Shown here: one piece after another, positions 2,053 through 12,667 of the stretch
Numbering within the stretch: the stretch's first letter is position 1
How the letters are laid out: each line of letters starts with the position of its first letter
Origin: a virus
Reading direction: 5' to 3' (one strand)
IMG/VR virus record: IMGVR_UViG_3300009448_000018
Location: 1-22,464 of that record
DNA: 22,464 bases
The notes under the pieces: model-generated
What the model was told of the DNA's origin: nothing
What the model saw: the letters and a program-made list of their open reading frames with translations, nothing else
Database searches by the model: none
Made by a program: the position numbers and the translations under genes

Positions 2053-2418
2053 ATGTCTAATTCGGACGCGTCACCCAAGGCAATCGAGCTTTCCTACTCC
2101 GAAGTATGGGCCGCTTTCGACGCCATGCCGAAGATTATGAGAGAAGCAGTTTCTAGGGCCGCTTTCGAATACGACACGATAGCTATCCTCGCGGACTACA
2201 ACGCGAGGAAGAACGACATTTTCAACAGCGTCACGCCGTATGAATACACCCAGGTAATGGAGTCTAATTTTCGGCGCGACGCCATGGAACATTCAGTCAC
2301 AAAGGCAGAAAAGAATGGACAATACATCCTCACTCGTCGACGCTTACACAAAGTTCATGTTGGATATGAACCAGAGCGAACGGACGTTCACCGCGAAGCA
2401 CCAACACAGCGTCGATGA
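2053..2418 (+). CDS. Hypothetical protein (121 aa) overlapping the next gene
   Basis: I do not recognise a family. The first 80 residues look like a normal soluble, mainly helical protein (YSEVWAAFDAMP, AVSRAAFEYD). The last 35 residues are Arg/His-rich and lie entirely within the start of the following gene. ATG 2053 begins one base after the RyR stop codon, and a G-run in the preceding codons could serve as the ribosome binding site, so translational coupling is likely. The 104-base overlap with the gene at 2315 is unusually long for this window. Either the C-terminus is genuinely dual-coded, or a frameshift has displaced the stop. The N-terminal part is more secure than the tail. Confidence 0.6.
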   Translation: MSNSDASPKAIELSYSEVWAAFDAMPKIMREAVSRAAFEYDTIAILADYNARKNDIFNSVTPYEYTQVMESNFRRDAMEHSVTKAEKNGQYILTRRRLHKVHVGYEPERTDVHREAPTQRR

Positions 2419-2872
2419 TATCGTCGACTTCAACACGCTGTGGAAAAACGACGTCGGAACCAACAAGGTCATCGTGTTCAAGCTTCCGGATGCAGTGCGA
2501 ATCAAGAAGACGGCGGAATACCAAGGTGCGAACATGGCCACCCCGTCTCTGCAAATCGGGGACGACTCAGCCGCGTCGGTGCAGAAAACCCCTTGGCGCG
2601 TCAGCCTCGCCTCGATGAAGAAACAAGTCGCGAAGGTTGAATACCTGTATCCGGAAACACTCCCGCACATGACGATCGCCGTTTTGACGCTTCACAATGG
2701 CTACGCCTTGCAGGGCATGTCGGCCCCGGCAGACCCAACCAACTTCGATGCCGAGAAGGGCAAGGAGTTCGCTTACGAGGATGCGATCCGCAAGATGTGG
2801 AGCCTCGAAGCCTACCTGATGCGTGAATACCTACACGGCAGCATCACTGTTGACCCGCGCCGCTGGGAATAG
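2315..2872 (+). CDS. N4 gp49/Sf6 gp66-family phage protein (185 aa)
   Basis: The C-terminal part (about residues 101-172) matches the N4_Gp49/Sf6_Gp66 family: a beta-strand segment (VEYLYPETLPHMTIAVLTL), then NGY..QG.SA..DP.NFD...G...AYEDAIRKMWSLEAYLMRE. This family is widespread in phages and its biochemical role is not established. Residues 1-100 form an extra N-terminal extension not needed for the domain. ATG 2315 lacks a strong ribosome binding site (GAAAAGA upstream), and ATG 2357 or 2366 are alternatives. Codons between 2315 and 2534 end mainly in C or G, as in the rest of the block, which supports the longer form. It overlaps the upstream gene by 104 bases. A promoter for the next gene follows the stop. 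Confidence 0.85.
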   Translation: MDNTSSLVDAYTKFMLDMNQSERTFTAKHQHSVDDIVDFNTLWKNDVGTNKVIVFKLPDAVRIKKTAEYQGANMATPSLQIGDDSAASVQKTPWRVSLASMKKQVAKVEYLYPETLPHMTIAVLTLHNGYALQGMSAPADPTNFDAEKGKEFAYEDAIRKMWSLEAYLMREYLHGSITVDPRRWE

Positions 2873-2881
2873 CATCGGGTA

Positions 2882-2910
2882 TTGACACGGGCATGCCCTC
2901 GTGATACACT
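2882..2910 (+). promoter_or_regulatory. Rightward promoter for the gene at 2942
   Basis: TTGACA (2882-2887), a 17-bp spacer, then TACACT (2905-2910), with TGA before the -10. The spacer contains the palindrome GGGCATGCCC flanked by CACG and CGTG. The predicted start is near 2917, and AAGGAG lies in the short leader before ATG 2942. Confidence 0.75.
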
Positions 2911-2941
2911 GCGGGGGCGTGCAACCTTAAGGAGCATTATC

Positions 2942-3343
2942 ATGACTGACAAGTCCCAAGCCGCACCGGCCAATCCGGTTCCCGGCCCGCAGAGCACGAA
3001 AACCGTCGCCCCCGCAACCAACGTCGACAAGGACGAAGCCGCCGAAAAGAAAGCTCAGGCCGAGGCGGAAAAGATCAAGGCCGAAGCGTTGGCCGCTGGA
3101 TCCAAGGACGACGAAAAGGCACTCGAAAAAGTGCTCGACGCCGACGCCGAAAAACACCCTGAGCCGATTCTCGAACGCGACGATGAGCCGGCTTGGTACG
3201 CCGAAGGTCGCGCTGCGATCACCAAGCTGCGCCGCCTCGTCTCGCTGATTCCGCGTGAAACCCCCGACGAACACAAAGTCTGGGGTGCGGCTGGCATTTC
3301 GCTGACTCTCGGCGACCTGCGGGCGTTGGCCCGCGAAGCCTAA
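2942..3343 (+). CDS. Charged Ala/Lys/Glu-rich hypothetical protein (133 aa)
   Basis: I do not recognise a family. Residues 1-28 are a Pro/Ala/Thr-rich, probably disordered leader. Residues 29-75 are a highly charged Ala/Glu/Lys/Asp helix (EAAEKKAQAEAEKIKAEALA). The C-terminal 50 residues are more ordered (WYAEGRAAITKLRRLVSLIP, then WGAAGISLTLGDLRALAREA) and are the likely functional part. ATG 2942 follows AAGGAG by seven bases; the longer opening from 2882 would start inside the promoter and is rejected. It is apparently monocistronic from its own promoter, with the hairpin and promoter at 3359-3400 after it. It sits immediately before the packaging genes, a position often holding early or regulatory functions, but nothing in the sequence proves a role. 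Confidence 0.75.
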   Translation: MTDKSQAAPANPVPGPQSTKTVAPATNVDKDEAAEKKAQAEAEKIKAEALAAGSKDDEKALEKVLDADAEKHPEPILERDDEPAWYAEGRAAITKLRRLVSLIPRETPDEHKVWGAAGISLTLGDLRALAREA

Positions 3344-3358
3344 TATTCCTGGCATGAC

Positions 3359-3387
3359 TTGACTTCGGGCCAGTAGCGTGGTAAACT
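3359..3387 (+). promoter_or_regulatory. Promoter upstream of the HNH gene
   Basis: TTGACT (3359-3364), a 17-bp spacer and TAAACT (3382-3387), with TGG before the -10. The predicted start is near 3394, leaving a leader of about 27 bases before ATG 3421. The -10 hexamer lies within the loop of the inverted repeat at 3369-3400. Confidence 0.65.
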
Positions 3388-3400
3388 TCCACCTACTGGC
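3369..3400 (+). promoter_or_regulatory. 12-bp inverted repeat centred on a -10 box
   Basis: GCCAGTAG (3369-3376) pairs with CTACTGGC (3393-3400). After a one-base bulge, GTGG (3378-3381) pairs with CCAC (3389-3392). The loop TAAACTT contains the -10 of the promoter at 3359-3387. It could be an operator, a terminator of the upstream transcript (only a weak T-rich stretch follows), or a cruciform-forming element. Confidence 0.7.
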
Positions 3401-3420
3401 TTCGTCGTATTTGGATCCCA

Positions 3421-3882
3421 ATGTCCCAACTACTTGAAAAATACATAGACTCATGGATGCCTGAGCCAAACACTGGTTGCTGCATTTGGCTTGGTTTTGT
3501 GAACGGGTCGAATCAAAAAAGGCCCAGGGTTACGATCAAAAATAAACAGTATTACTTGACCCGGCTTGTGTGTGAGGAAACCCACGGACCACTACGGGAC
3601 GACGAGGTAGGAAGGCACACGTGTCACGTGGAGGTGTGTATTAACCCGCAACACATAATTCCTGGAACACAAACCGACAACGAACGCGACAAATCACCAG
3701 AAAAACGCAGCAACGCTTCCCGTAAAGCTGCCGTTAGTCGCGCAGCTAATAGAGGCCGTGAAATCGGAGTAAGACAAAAACGCGGCTGGTGGATATTTGA
3801 ACCTCACAAAGATAGGCTCCACAGCCGACATTTAACACTGGACGCCGCCAACGAGGCAGCTAGGGGGTTTCATGCCAGCTAA
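3421..3882 (+). CDS. HNH homing-type endonuclease (153 aa)
   Basis: This is an HNH_3-like endonuclease. GCCIWLG (19-25) and RLVCEETHGPL (48-58) lead into the HNH core RHTCHVEVCINPQHIIPGTQTDN (starting at residue 65), with His66, Cys68, Cys73, Asn75 and His78 as likely metal or catalytic residues. Residues 88-120 are a basic linker. The tail (GWWIFEPHKD...LTLDAANEAARG) resembles DNA-binding add-ons of homing enzymes. The enzyme would cut DNA lacking its own gene and so spread by repair copying. The base composition is visibly richer in A/T than neighbours, consistent with acquisition. ATG 3421 has only a weak GGAT upstream. The end overlaps the terminase small-subunit start by 11 bases. It has its own promoter at 3359. 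Confidence 0.88.
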   Translation: MSQLLEKYIDSWMPEPNTGCCIWLGFVNGSNQKRPRVTIKNKQYYLTRLVCEETHGPLRDDEVGRHTCHVEVCINPQHIIPGTQTDNERDKSPEKRSNASRKAAVSRAANRGREIGVRQKRGWWIFEPHKDRLHSRHLTLDAANEAARGFHAS

Positions 3883-4336
3883 CTTGCCTCGCGACCTCAT
3901 TCCACTACCCACCATGCCTTTCGATTATCGCCCTGACTCCCTGCCGCTGGACATAGAGGAATGCCGCACTGCGATTTGGAGGGCACGAGGTAACATCACC
4001 GTTGCGGCGGATATCCTTAAGGTCACGTCCAACAGGCTTCGCGGTTTCGTCTCCCGTTCCCCCTATCTTTCGGCGGAACTGAACGAAGCCAAAGAGCAAT
4101 TGAAGGATCTAGCGGAAGACACGGTCTACGACGCGTTGACTGACGCGGACGACAAAGGTCGTCGCGACGCAATGGCGCGTTTCGTGTTGCAGGGTATCGG
4201 CAAAGATCGCGGTTGGGGTTCAGGTGGCTCGAAAATTCAGATCGACAATTCGAAGGGCGGGACGGTCATTGTGGGCTGGGCTGACGGAACAATATTCCAG
4301 CCCGAAGCCCAAGAGAAAGTGATCGACCATGATTGA
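3872..4336 (+). CDS. terS: Terminase small subunit (154 aa)
   Basis: This is the small, DNA-recognising subunit of the packaging motor. Residues 30-65 look like a helix-turn-helix ([37 protein letters not shown]), followed by a helical segment ([23 protein letters not shown]) and [20 protein letters not shown], a pattern common in phage small terminases and a likely oligomerisation region. The C-terminus ([16 protein letters not shown]) may contact the large subunit. ATG 3872 follows a GGGGG ribosome binding site; the internal ATG 3914 has none. It overlaps the HNH gene upstream by 11 bases and the HNH-like gene downstream by 8 bases, so it is sandwiched between two probable mobile genes. The call rests on the fold pattern and position before terL. 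Confidence 0.82.
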
Positions 4337-4724
4337 AGTCGAAAAACCAGTTTGGCGCGGCCCTGCTTTTAAGCGTGAATACGACCGACAGTACCGCGAG
4401 TACAACAAAGAAGAAGTGCTGCGTCGCCAGCGTGATTGGTACGACCGCAACCGAGGTAAAAAGATTGCCTCGGTTCGTTCCCGGCAAGATCACAAAATCA
4501 ACAAAGCTCAATTGGATCGTAAGTACAGTGCGGAAATCCAAAAGTTTTACACAGAGGCTCGTCGCCTTACCGATCAGACTGGTGTGGTACATACCGTTGA
4601 TCACGTTTGGCCGCTCAACGGTAAACATAGTTGCGGGCTTCACGTTCCGTGGAATATGCAAATTCTTACGCAGGCCGCTAATGACTCCAAGGGTAATAAC
4701 GAGCCAGAGGTATGGTGGGAATGA
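4329..4724 (+). CDS. HNH/endonuclease VII-like nuclease between terS and terL (131 aa)
   Basis: The C-terminal half carries a phage nuclease signature. [10 protein letters not shown] (90-99) supplies the Asp91-His92 pair; [12 protein letters not shown] (103-114) and ANDSKGN (117-123) supply the remaining conserved His, Asn and Lys. This pattern is usual in HNH-type or endonuclease VII-like phage proteins. The N-terminal half (10-70) is a strongly basic, Tyr/Arg-rich helix likely to bind DNA. In some phages an HNH protein beside the large terminase takes part in packaging cleavage, so a packaging helper is an alternative to a homing enzyme. ATG 4329 overlaps terS by eight bases, and the stop overlaps the terL start as ATGA. 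Codons are rich in T-ending forms, as in the first third of terL. Confidence 0.8.
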
Positions 4725-6046
4725 CCGACGGCCCAAAATACGCTGAAATGCAAGGGCAGGATCAACCCCGCAAAGTTGTCATCCCGTATACGCCTCGTAG
4801 CCATTTCCTCCCACTGCACTTATCGCCGAAAAGATGGAAGTTCGTAGTCGCTCATCGTCGCGCTGGTAAGTCGGTTGCCGCGATCAACGAAATGATCAAA
4901 CGTGCGTTGGAGAACACACGCAAAGATCCACCACCGAGGTATGCGTATGTTGGGCCGTCATTCGATCAGACCAAGGACCTCATCTGGGGTTATCTTAAGC
5001 ATTTTGCGGGGCAGATTCCGGGGGTCGAATTTAGGGAGGGTGATCTTATGTGCATCCTTCCTAATGGCGCTACTATTCGCCTCTACGGCGGTGCAGCTGC
5101 TTATGAGCGTATGCGTGGTCTTTATTTCGATGGTATCATGCTGGACGAGTTCACGCTACTTAATCCTGCCGTATTCTCTACTGTCGTTCGACCTTGTCTT
5201 GCTGACTATCGCGGGTGGGCCATCATTTCTGGCACTTCTAATGGTGATGACCATTTTGCTGCTCTCCGCAACAAGAACCTGAACAACCCGAATTGGGACA
5301 TCTTCTCGATCCCAGTCACCGAGACCGACGCTCTGCACCCCGACGAAGTCAAGGAAATGACGGCGGACATGTCGGCGGAAGAGTACGCTCGAGAAATGCT
5401 TTGCAGCTTCGATGCGCCGGTCGAGGGGTCCTATTATGGGGACATTCTCAACGATATGGCCGCGACGAACATCACCGTCGTTCCTTATCAGCCGCAACTG
5501 CCCGTGTACACGATGTGGGACTTGGGCATCGACGACGCGACGGCAGTCTGGTTCTTCCAGTTTGTCGGCAAAGCGATCCACTTTATTAAGTACAAGCAAT
5601 ACACCGGGAAGGGCTTGCCCGAAATCTACGCCGACATCGCGTCGATGGGTTACCAACTCAGCGACCTTATAATGCCTCACGATATCAAAGCTCGTGAGCT
5701 TGGCACCGGCAAATCCCGTTACGAGGTTGTTATGAACCTCCACGGCGACGTTCCGGTAGTCACCCCCCTCCACCGTGTTGAGGACGGGATCGAGGCTGTC
5801 AGGTCATTCCTGCGCATCTGCTTCTTCGATGAGAAAGAGTGCGAAGAGGGCCTTTCGGCGTTAAAGAATTATCATCGGAGCAAACAGGGTCGTCCGGTCC
5901 ACAATTGGGCCTCACACGGTTCTGATGCTATTCGCACGGGCGCAATGGGTATACACCTAATTACAAGTTGGGGCAGTGTATCCGGCGGCAACGTAGTTTC
6001 AATGCGGCGCGGGGGCTTGCGTCGTCGAATCGGAGGAACCCGATAA
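4721..6046 (+). CDS. terL: Terminase large subunit (441 aa)
   Basis: This is the ATP-driven DNA packaging motor and nuclease. ATPase domain: Walker A-like AHRRAGKS (44-51), Walker B GIMLDEF (138-144) with catalytic Glu143, and coupling motif SGTSNGD (170-176). RNase H-like nuclease domain: WDLGIDDA (Asp267), MPHD (Asp321) and SHGSDAIR (Asp402) supply the three acidic metal ligands. The length is normal for the family. ATG 4721 forms an ATGA overlap with the upstream stop and lies about ten bases after AGAGG; ATG 4712 is possible but badly spaced. Codon use changes around base 5270 (about residue 183), from T-ending to C-ending codons. The end overlaps portal by one base (TAATG). Confidence 0.95.
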
Positions 6047-8136: not shown

Positions 8137-8390
8137 GGAAGTTCGAGGATCTACCAGCAATGGAACGCGAAGAAATGATGGCCGACGCAAGAGCGGCCCT
8201 CAGCTCAACTGCTGTCAACTACGTGTTTGATGAACTACAGCAGGAATACCTGAACGAACTCATTCAGGCGGAAGTAGGGGGATTGACAGCCAGCACGGCG
8301 CATGCTAGTATGAAGGTGCTAGCTAGCGTGCAATCGAGGCTGCAGTCCATAGTCAACGAAAAACTCATGCAGGCTCGAAAAGGAAGATAA
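8133..8390 (+). CDS. Small protein between portal and scaffold (85 aa)
   Basis: I do not recognise a family. It is a short, mainly helical protein (MEREEMMADARAALSST, VFDELQQEYLNELIQAEVG, VLASVQSRLQSIVNEKLMQARKG) without membrane segments. Position between portal and scaffold suggests a minor head-assembly role. It starts with GTG at 8133, overlapping the portal stop as GTGA, with AAAGGA upstream, so coupled translation is likely. A promoter for scaffold and capsid lies inside its 3' part at 8283-8311. Codon choice is less GC-biased than in its neighbours. Confidence 0.75.
   Translation: MRKFEDLPAMEREEMMADARAALSSTAVNYVFDELQQEYLNELIQAEVGGLTASTAHASMKVLASVQSRLQSIVNEKLMQARKGR
8283..8311 (+). promoter_or_regulatory. 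Intragenic promoter driving scaffold and capsid
   Basis: TTGACA (8283-8288), a 17-bp spacer, then TAGTAT (8306-8311), with TGC before the -10. The first twelve bases (TTGACAGCCAGC) are identical to those of the promoter at 12336. The predicted start is near 8318, about 75 bases before the scaffold ATG. Confidence 0.6.
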
Positions 8391-10509: not shown

Positions 10510-10545
10510 GGCGGGGGACCCGGAGTAACGTCTGGGTCCCCCAAT
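10510..10545 (+). terminator. Strong hairpin after the capsid gene
   Basis: GGGGGACCC (10513-10521) pairs exactly with GGGTCCCCC (10534-10542). Three more pairs (one G-U) extend the stem to 12 bp with a GTAACG loop. No U-tract follows, so it may be a partial terminator or an mRNA-stabilising 3' element rather than a full intrinsic terminator. Confidence 0.65.
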
Positions 10546-10888: not shown

Positions 10889-10894
10889 AGGCGA

Positions 10895-10916
10895 GGCCGG
10901 GGGCAACACCCCGGCC
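10895..10916 (+). terminator. GC hairpin after the decoration gene
   Basis: GGCCGGGG (10895-10902) pairs with CCCCGGCC (10909-10916) around the loop GCAACA. It lies seven bases after the stop codon. Only CGCAACTTT follows, so it is U-poor. It is likely an attenuator or RNA-stability element between the capsid genes and the lysis genes. Confidence 0.65.
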
Positions 10917-10936
10917 CGCAACTTTGGGAGAGTGGT

Positions 10937-11889: not shown

Positions 11890-12339
11890 ATGGCAATCAA
11901 CTGGACCCAAGTAAACGTTCCGACTATACTGGCCGTTGCCGGAGCCGCAATTGGGCTGTTCAACTACATCGGTGACTTCGACAAGCGCTTGAGCGAACAG
12001 GAGCAGTATCGCACCATTCGCTCTTCGCAGACCGACAGCAACTTCGCAATGGTCAACAAATCTATTGAGGGCCTGCGATACGATCAGAATCTGGTTCGGG
12101 AAAGTGTTGAGAATATCCCCTACCGTGTTGGCGTCGTTGAGCAGGGCCTCATCGAACAAGGTAAGCGTACTGACCGTCTTTCGGAGCTAATCCTGAATAA
12201 CATGGATGTGTTTCGCAAGGACATCAACCAGCTTGGAACTAAAATCGAAGTTCTCGCCAGCAAGATTGACGATAACTTCCCGTCGAAACGAACCCAATTG
12301 ATGTTGTCAACACCTCCGGACATTCCGGCACGGAATTGA
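11890..12339 (+). CDS. Membrane-anchored coiled-coil protein, possible spanin-like lysis protein (149 aa)
   Basis: An N-terminal hydrophobic segment (about residues 10-27, VPTILAVAGAAIGLFNYI) is followed by about 110 residues of polar helical sequence with heptad-like spacing (FDKRLSEQEQYRTIRSS, SIEGLRYDQNLVRESVENI, RTDRLSELILNNMDVFRKDINQLGTKIEVLASKI). This is the architecture of an inner-membrane spanin or an accessory holin. No partner outer-membrane lipoprotein ORF was seen. ATG 11890 follows AAAGGA by about ten bases; a GTG at 11869 would start before that site. It is third in the lysis cassette after endolysin and holin. Confidence 0.65.
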   Translation: MAINWTQVNVPTILAVAGAAIGLFNYIGDFDKRLSEQEQYRTIRSSQTDSNFAMVNKSIEGLRYDQNLVRESVENIPYRVGVVEQGLIEQGKRTDRLSELILNNMDVFRKDINQLGTKIEVLASKIDDNFPSKRTQLMLSTPPDIPARN

Positions 12340-12364
12340 CAGCCAGCCCGCAGCGTGGTATACT
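12336..12364 (+). promoter_or_regulatory. Promoter at the start of the connector/tail block
   Basis: TTGACA (12336-12341), an exact 17-bp spacer, then TATACT (12359-12364), with TGG before the -10. The -35 overlaps the stop of the preceding gene. The expected transcription start (about 12371) lies just inside the next annotated gene, which is unusual. It is closely similar to the promoter at 8283. Confidence 0.75.
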
Positions 12365-12367
12365 CCT

Positions 12368-12667
12368 ATGGAAAGTCGACTGGTATACAAAAACGAGGAT
12401 GGGGTCCGGCGGACCTTCATCACCGACACCGACAACCCTCACCAATTGGTCGTCAAGACCGAGGTTGTGATGGACGGCGTGATCGAGACGAATAAGATCA
12501 TGCGGGAGTTACACCCCACCAAATCCACCAATAAGTTGGTGGCCCGTGGAGTTCCCCTTACAGTGTACGAAAGGTCTGTACACGAGGGTTGGGACGACAA
12601 AGATTGGGACCGCTGGTTGAACGATTCGGACAACGCGGTATTTAGGGTTTGGGAAGGCCGAGTATGA
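12368..12667 (+). CDS. Hypothetical phage protein (99 aa)
   Basis: No family name can be given. It is soluble and mixed alpha/beta, with a C-terminal WDDKDWDRWLNDSDNAVFRVWEGRV pattern that resembles small proteins seen before the adaptor gene in other podoviruses. The only early in-frame ATG is at 12368; the next is at 12470. No ribosome binding site precedes 12368, and the ATG lies four bases after the -10 box, so a transcript from that promoter would either be leaderless or lack this ATG. Readthrough from upstream could still express it. The stop overlaps the next gene as ATGA. Confidence 0.7.
   Translation: MESRLVYKNEDGVRRTFITDTDNPHQLVVKTEVVMDGVIETNKIMRELHPTKSTNKLVARGVPLTVYERSVHEGWDDKDWDRWLNDSDNAVFRVWEGRV

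Follow-up and report, generated by a model that had tools for sequence, protein, structure and literature searches.

A promoter whose -10 box lies in the loop of an inverted repeat raises two questions: what the repeat does there, and which genes it serves. Such a site is located at positions 3359-3400 of IMG/VR virus record IMGVR_UViG_3300009448_000018, of which we analysed positions 1 to 22,464 (22,464 nucleotides, here called the window). The window covers part of the genome of a tailed phage, with genes for the large terminase (4712-6046), the portal, the major head protein and others. A sequence-only reading had assigned the promoter to an HNH gene and proposed that one element could act both as a terminator for the upstream gene and as a repressible or supercoil-sensitive promoter. 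The features around the site are as follows, with the evidence for each in brackets where it is not a gene.

2882-2929, + strand: second promoter, which precedes the gene at 2942 and has its -10 box (TACACT) in a hairpin loop between the imperfectly pairing arms GCATGCCCTCG and CGGGGGCGTGC (sequence, arm swaps)
2942-3343, + strand: upstream gene of 133 amino acids, function not assigned, whose transcript would enter the hairpin
3359-3387, + strand: extended -10 sigma70-type promoter of the packaging/head operon, with TTGACT at 3359-3364, a 17-nt spacer at 3365-3381 and TAAACT at 3382-3387, directly preceded by TGG (motif recurs in related records)
3369-3381, + strand: left hairpin arm within the promoter spacer, consisting of GCCAGTAG (3369-3376), a bulged C (3377) and GTGG (3378-3381) (sequence, folding, arm swaps)
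3382-3388, + strand: 7-nt hairpin loop TAAACTT, which holds the -10 hexamer TAAACT (sequence, folding)
3389-3400, + strand: right hairpin arm, consisting of CCAC (3389-3392) and CTACTGGC (3393-3400) (sequence, folding, arm swaps)
3401-3420, + strand: leader, in which a (C/T)GTATTTGGA box upstream of the start codon is conserved (alignment of 13 elements)
3421-3882, + strand: HNH endonuclease gene (PHROG 1872/826), between the promoter with its leader and terS
3872-4336, + strand: putative small terminase gene (terS), so called for its synteny with the large terminase, and originally the first gene served by the promoter

The site at 3359-3387 has the elements of a sigma70-type extended -10 promoter (TTGACA-like -35, spacer of about 17 nt, TGn and TAnnnT), and positions 2400-5000 contain three sigma70-like matches including this one, where 1.6 were expected. 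As described by the sequence-only reading, the -10 box is located in the loop of a 12-bp inverted repeat with GTGG and CCAC innermost, and the stem is more precisely composed of 8 and 4 bp separated by a one-base bulge. In RNA, two G-U pairs, 3367-3368 with 3401-3402, would extend it. The folding energy is -24.9 kcal/mol, compared to -13.3 +/- 2.8 kcal/mol when the spacer and leader were shuffled, and only one of 500 shuffles was as low. The evidence from the window alone is nevertheless modest and suggestive only, because GC-rich stretches elsewhere give equally strong duplexes (113 of 22,384 window positions); the comparative data are decisive. The repeat search overlooked the hairpin because of the bulge, and there was no Rfam match at the gathering score in the window. 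In the stretch 3344-3358 and in relatives, a (G)TTCC box is located about 10 nt 5' of the -35 box; it is seen again at many promoters of these phages and may help in recognition from upstream.

The promoter does not belong to the HNH gene by origin. In the relatives examined, the HNH gene is missing at this spot, and terS is the first gene behind the element, followed by the large terminase gene. Since the terS start codon is located about 62-66 nt past the -35 box in most relatives, and the HNH start codon is found at the same distance in the window, the gene order indicates that the HNH gene was inserted here and adopted the promoter and leader formerly serving terS directly. The element is thus attributed to the packaging/head operon, with the HNH gene inserted behind it. 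The leader at 3401-3420 is probably the ribosome-binding region of terS, now used by the HNH gene. The assignment of terS is putative and derives from its location ahead of the large terminase gene and from the relatives, whose terS proteins are 56-79% identical to that of the window; the window protein had no family match in PHROG or Pfam, a PDB profile search was also empty, and no relatives of terS were found by a search in bacterial genomes. Between terS and the large terminase gene, there is an endonuclease VII-like gene (PHROG 1035/26577) at 4329-4724, with a homolog at the same place in L011 and none in the other relatives compared. On the other side of the element, the stop codon of the gene at 2942-3343 ends 15 nt 5' of the -35 box, and the GC-rich hairpin starts about 25 nt past this stop. 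The protein encoded by this gene had no matches in PHROG or Pfam.

To learn how general the arrangement is, we collected relatives by searches of IMG/VR, which yielded 17 loci with the large terminase and 70 with the small terminase, and by a GenBank search that added Ochrobactrum phage vB_OspP_OH (L020). A -10 box enclosed by a hairpin before terS, here called the collapsed form, was found in 14 distinct sequences including the window (L004, L005, L006, L008, L009, L011, L020, L032, L065, L081, L083, L086 and L087 being the others), with z-scores of -3.0 to -7.6. The promoter hexamers are conserved among the 14, while the arms are widely divergent: over the final 15 nt of the spacer, the near relatives L004 and L005 are 87% and 80% identical to the window, respectively, and the other members 27-60%. 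In several members, the stem extends into the ends of the -10 hexamer, and in L087 into half of it. Upstream of more distant large terminases, there was no clear new member, with L154 as a borderline case.

Because the MAFFT alignment misplaces the right arms, covariation was measured by swapping arms between the phages. Across the 14 elements, the mean pairing energy of the left arms is -25.5 kcal/mol with their own right arms and -13.1 kcal/mol with the right arms of other phages, and none of 10,000 partner permutations reached the observed pairing sum. The pairing is, as judged from these arm swaps, conserved through compensatory sequence change. The expectation that relatives would conserve the arms was thus borne out for their complementarity, while the letters themselves vary. 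G-U pairs make up 28 of 263 pairs when the + strand is folded and 10 of 239 when the - strand is folded (Fisher p 0.007, which is only a guide because the elements are related). This bias speaks for selection on RNA transcribed from upstream rather than on a two-sided palindrome in DNA, and the bulges and internal loops in several members likewise point to RNA.

The same junction is arranged differently in other relatives, which provide a natural comparison. Among the 21 distinct relatives with a terS promoter, 20 also have a hairpin, which is collapsed with the promoter in 14 and separate and upstream of it in six; L090 is the sole terS promoter without one. In the six (L035, L042, L045, L059, L063 and L073), the hairpin is located about 110-180 nt and the promoter about 50-66 nt upstream of terS, in a gap of 144-185 nt, while the gap in the collapsed form is 60-98 nt. 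Another five relatives (L040, L049, L055, L060 and L062) have a hairpin but no promoter at the junction. Where the gap is shorter than about 45 nt, most relatives lack a promoter, and the folds are weaker and lie inside the upstream coding sequence. With 20 of the 21 terS promoters carrying a hairpin, and with this pattern of gaps, hairpins go together with the start of a new transcription unit, and the collapsed form achieves in 60-98 nt what the separate form does in 144-185 nt. The collapsed form is scattered over deep branches of the terS tree, so that several gains or losses are needed, at least three of which are forced by well supported branches, and we therefore do not claim a single origin. 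In the six relatives with separate elements, the terS start codon, or a nearby in-frame ATG, is found about 5-7 nt past the -10 box, and a leaderless terS mRNA is therefore predicted.

Taking the promoter, the hairpin, its covariation, the location before terS in the relatives and the HNH insertion together, as deduced from sequence comparison, we consider it reasonably likely that the element is a collapsed terminator, or former of 3' ends, and promoter between the small upstream gene and the packaging/head operon. The same DNA would then probably end one gene unit and start the next. This retains the dual role of the sequence-only reading, which is favoured by the 20 of 21 relatives, and replaces the HNH gene with the packaging/head operon as its original beneficiary. 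A polymerase arriving from upstream would produce an RNA with both arms, which would fold into the strong hairpin and end the upstream transcript, through release or pausing that depends on the hairpin or through a protected 3' end, and thereby lower readthrough. A host polymerase of the sigma70 type would begin a new RNA at the embedded promoter, with the start predicted, from the usual 7-nt distance, at about 7 nt past the -10 box in the right arm. The new RNA would therefore lack the left arm and could not fold the hairpin, so that the stretch of about 45 bp would block readthrough transcripts and spare its own.

A canonical intrinsic terminator is not supported. No U-tract directly follows the stem in the window (the tail is TTCGTCGT), and the site was not listed in the scan for intrinsic terminators. 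The eight bases past the stem contain one to five Ts in most members, and a true T-run is only found in L086 (TTTTTG); the Ts in the leader may instead serve ribosome binding. We place the terminator-promoter reading no higher because the U-tract is missing in most members. The main text of the paper on vB_OspP_OH mentions neither promoters nor terminators (PMC7139368).

The missing U-tracts bear most directly on an alternative in which transcription is not ended at the site but reads through, and the hairpin shapes the transcript ends, as the target of an RNase III-like cut or as a block to 3' exonucleases. The stems are long and sometimes bulged, and the separate hairpins of the sister relatives also mostly lack long U-tracts, all of which would suit RNA processing or stabilisation. 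In phage T7, which is likewise tailed and has hairpins at gene boundaries near promoters, RNase III sites are found beside promoters; the T7 promoters serve a phage polymerase, whereas here the -35 and -10 boxes are of the host type and the -10 box is in the loop. Processing by itself leaves the association of hairpin and promoter unexplained, since a processing site could be anywhere between the two genes, and we regard this alternative as unlikely, though worth weighing.

It is more doubtful that the inverted repeat is an operator, at which a repressor or activator would bind as a dimer, cover the -10 box and regulate the late operon. The -10 box is at the centre of the site, where a repressor would block, and coevolution of operators with their repressors, in which sites drift with their proteins and retain palindromy, would also yield covarying palindromes. 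However, in several members bulges and internal loops break the symmetry of the half-sites, the G-U pairs favour one strand, the relatives with the uncollapsed form have a separate hairpin in its stead, and no second full arm pair was found in the sequence searched, although an autoregulated single site is conceivable. The comparison cautions that -10 boxes within palindromes need not be operators.

The G-U bias towards one strand, the bulged helices and the single copy argue against both a repressible promoter and a supercoil-sensitive one, the latter of which we consider very improbable. In the latter, extrusion of a cruciform under negative supercoiling would expose or remove the -10 box, whose non-template strand would sit in the loop. 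Extrusion would, however, use up the spacer and part the -10 box from the -35 box, and the stems, being rich in GC, would be slow to form a cruciform. Furthermore, each G-U pair becomes an A-C mismatch in the arm of the other strand, so that such pairs would be selected against. A chance palindrome in a GC-rich promoter is practically negligible, since strong duplexes are not rare in the window but the pairing is retained in 14 members with widely differing arms, with the permutation result given above.

Overlaps between terminators and promoters are usually reported as single cases, while covariation keeps this one in 14 diverged phage sequences. In Clostridium saccharoperbutylacetonicum, the promoter P_asr similarly overlaps the loop of an upstream operon's terminator, that of the sol operon (PMC9402939). 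The antisense RNA made from P_asr runs back across the operon, whereas transcription from the phage element continues forward into the next gene, and covariation across relatives, present in the phage element, was not found in the available parts of the description of P_asr (PMC9402939). In E. coli, the frd terminator is also the ampC attenuator, so that the terminator of one unit shares DNA with the control region of the next, as in the phages (PMC11838884, citing Grundstrom and Jaurin 1982). The attenuator is located downstream of the start (+17 to +37) and acts on ampC's own transcript, unlike the phage element, where the start would be inside the hairpin and its own RNA should escape. A literature search that ran mostly outside subscription journals found no description of the arrangement in phages, and no same-direction promoter with both a -10 box in the loop and covariation. 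If the terminator-promoter reading is right, about 45 bp are enough to keep two transcription units apart in a compact genome, and the element is a ready template for compact insulated promoters.

A further step would be a hand-over, in which the polymerase that ends at the hairpin is released onto the embedded promoter and restarts. In vitro, the polymerase of E. coli can slide along the DNA after intrinsic termination and begin again at a promoter close by, and the authors expect this to depend on the distance between terminator and promoter (PMC6978380). By analogy, the hairpin could in principle pass the polymerase on to the promoter, although that system has a separate promoter and a distance of zero is not described in the part of the report available to us (PMC6978380). 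We consider a hand-over, with a geometry that could be reused at several promoters such as that at 2882 in the window, quite speculative; if true, upstream transcription would feed the initiation of the late operon without a joint transcript.

The promoter motif is found 9-17 times per related phage record, compared to 0-1 times in the reversed control. For eight of 105 promoters outside terS, the own downstream sequence is a better pairing partner than about 99% of the other downstream sequences (about one expected), and for 14 it beats 95% of them (about five expected). The promoter at 2882 in the window is among the eight, and no other promoter's downstream sequence matches the pairing of its spacer. 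By this measure, the promoter-in-hairpin design is strongest at terS, though found beyond it too.

Several other sites in the window were also observed. The promoter TTGACAGCCAGCCCGCAGCGTGGTATACT at 12336-12370 ends 3 nt before the ATG of the gene at 12368-12667, which suggests either that translation begins without a leader or that the true start codon is further downstream. Another promoter-like match, TTGACAGCCAGCACGGCGCATGCTAGTAT at 8283-8311, is placed within a coding region and at the same place in most relatives, and may merely be conserved protein sequence. The spacers at 1611-1639 and in several relatives often contain CACGC...GCGTG, an inverted repeat formed by the bases after the -35 box and before the -10 box. 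Strong hairpins at 10513-10542 and about 10891-10918 flank the gene after that for the major head protein and, like the terS hairpins, have no U-tract.
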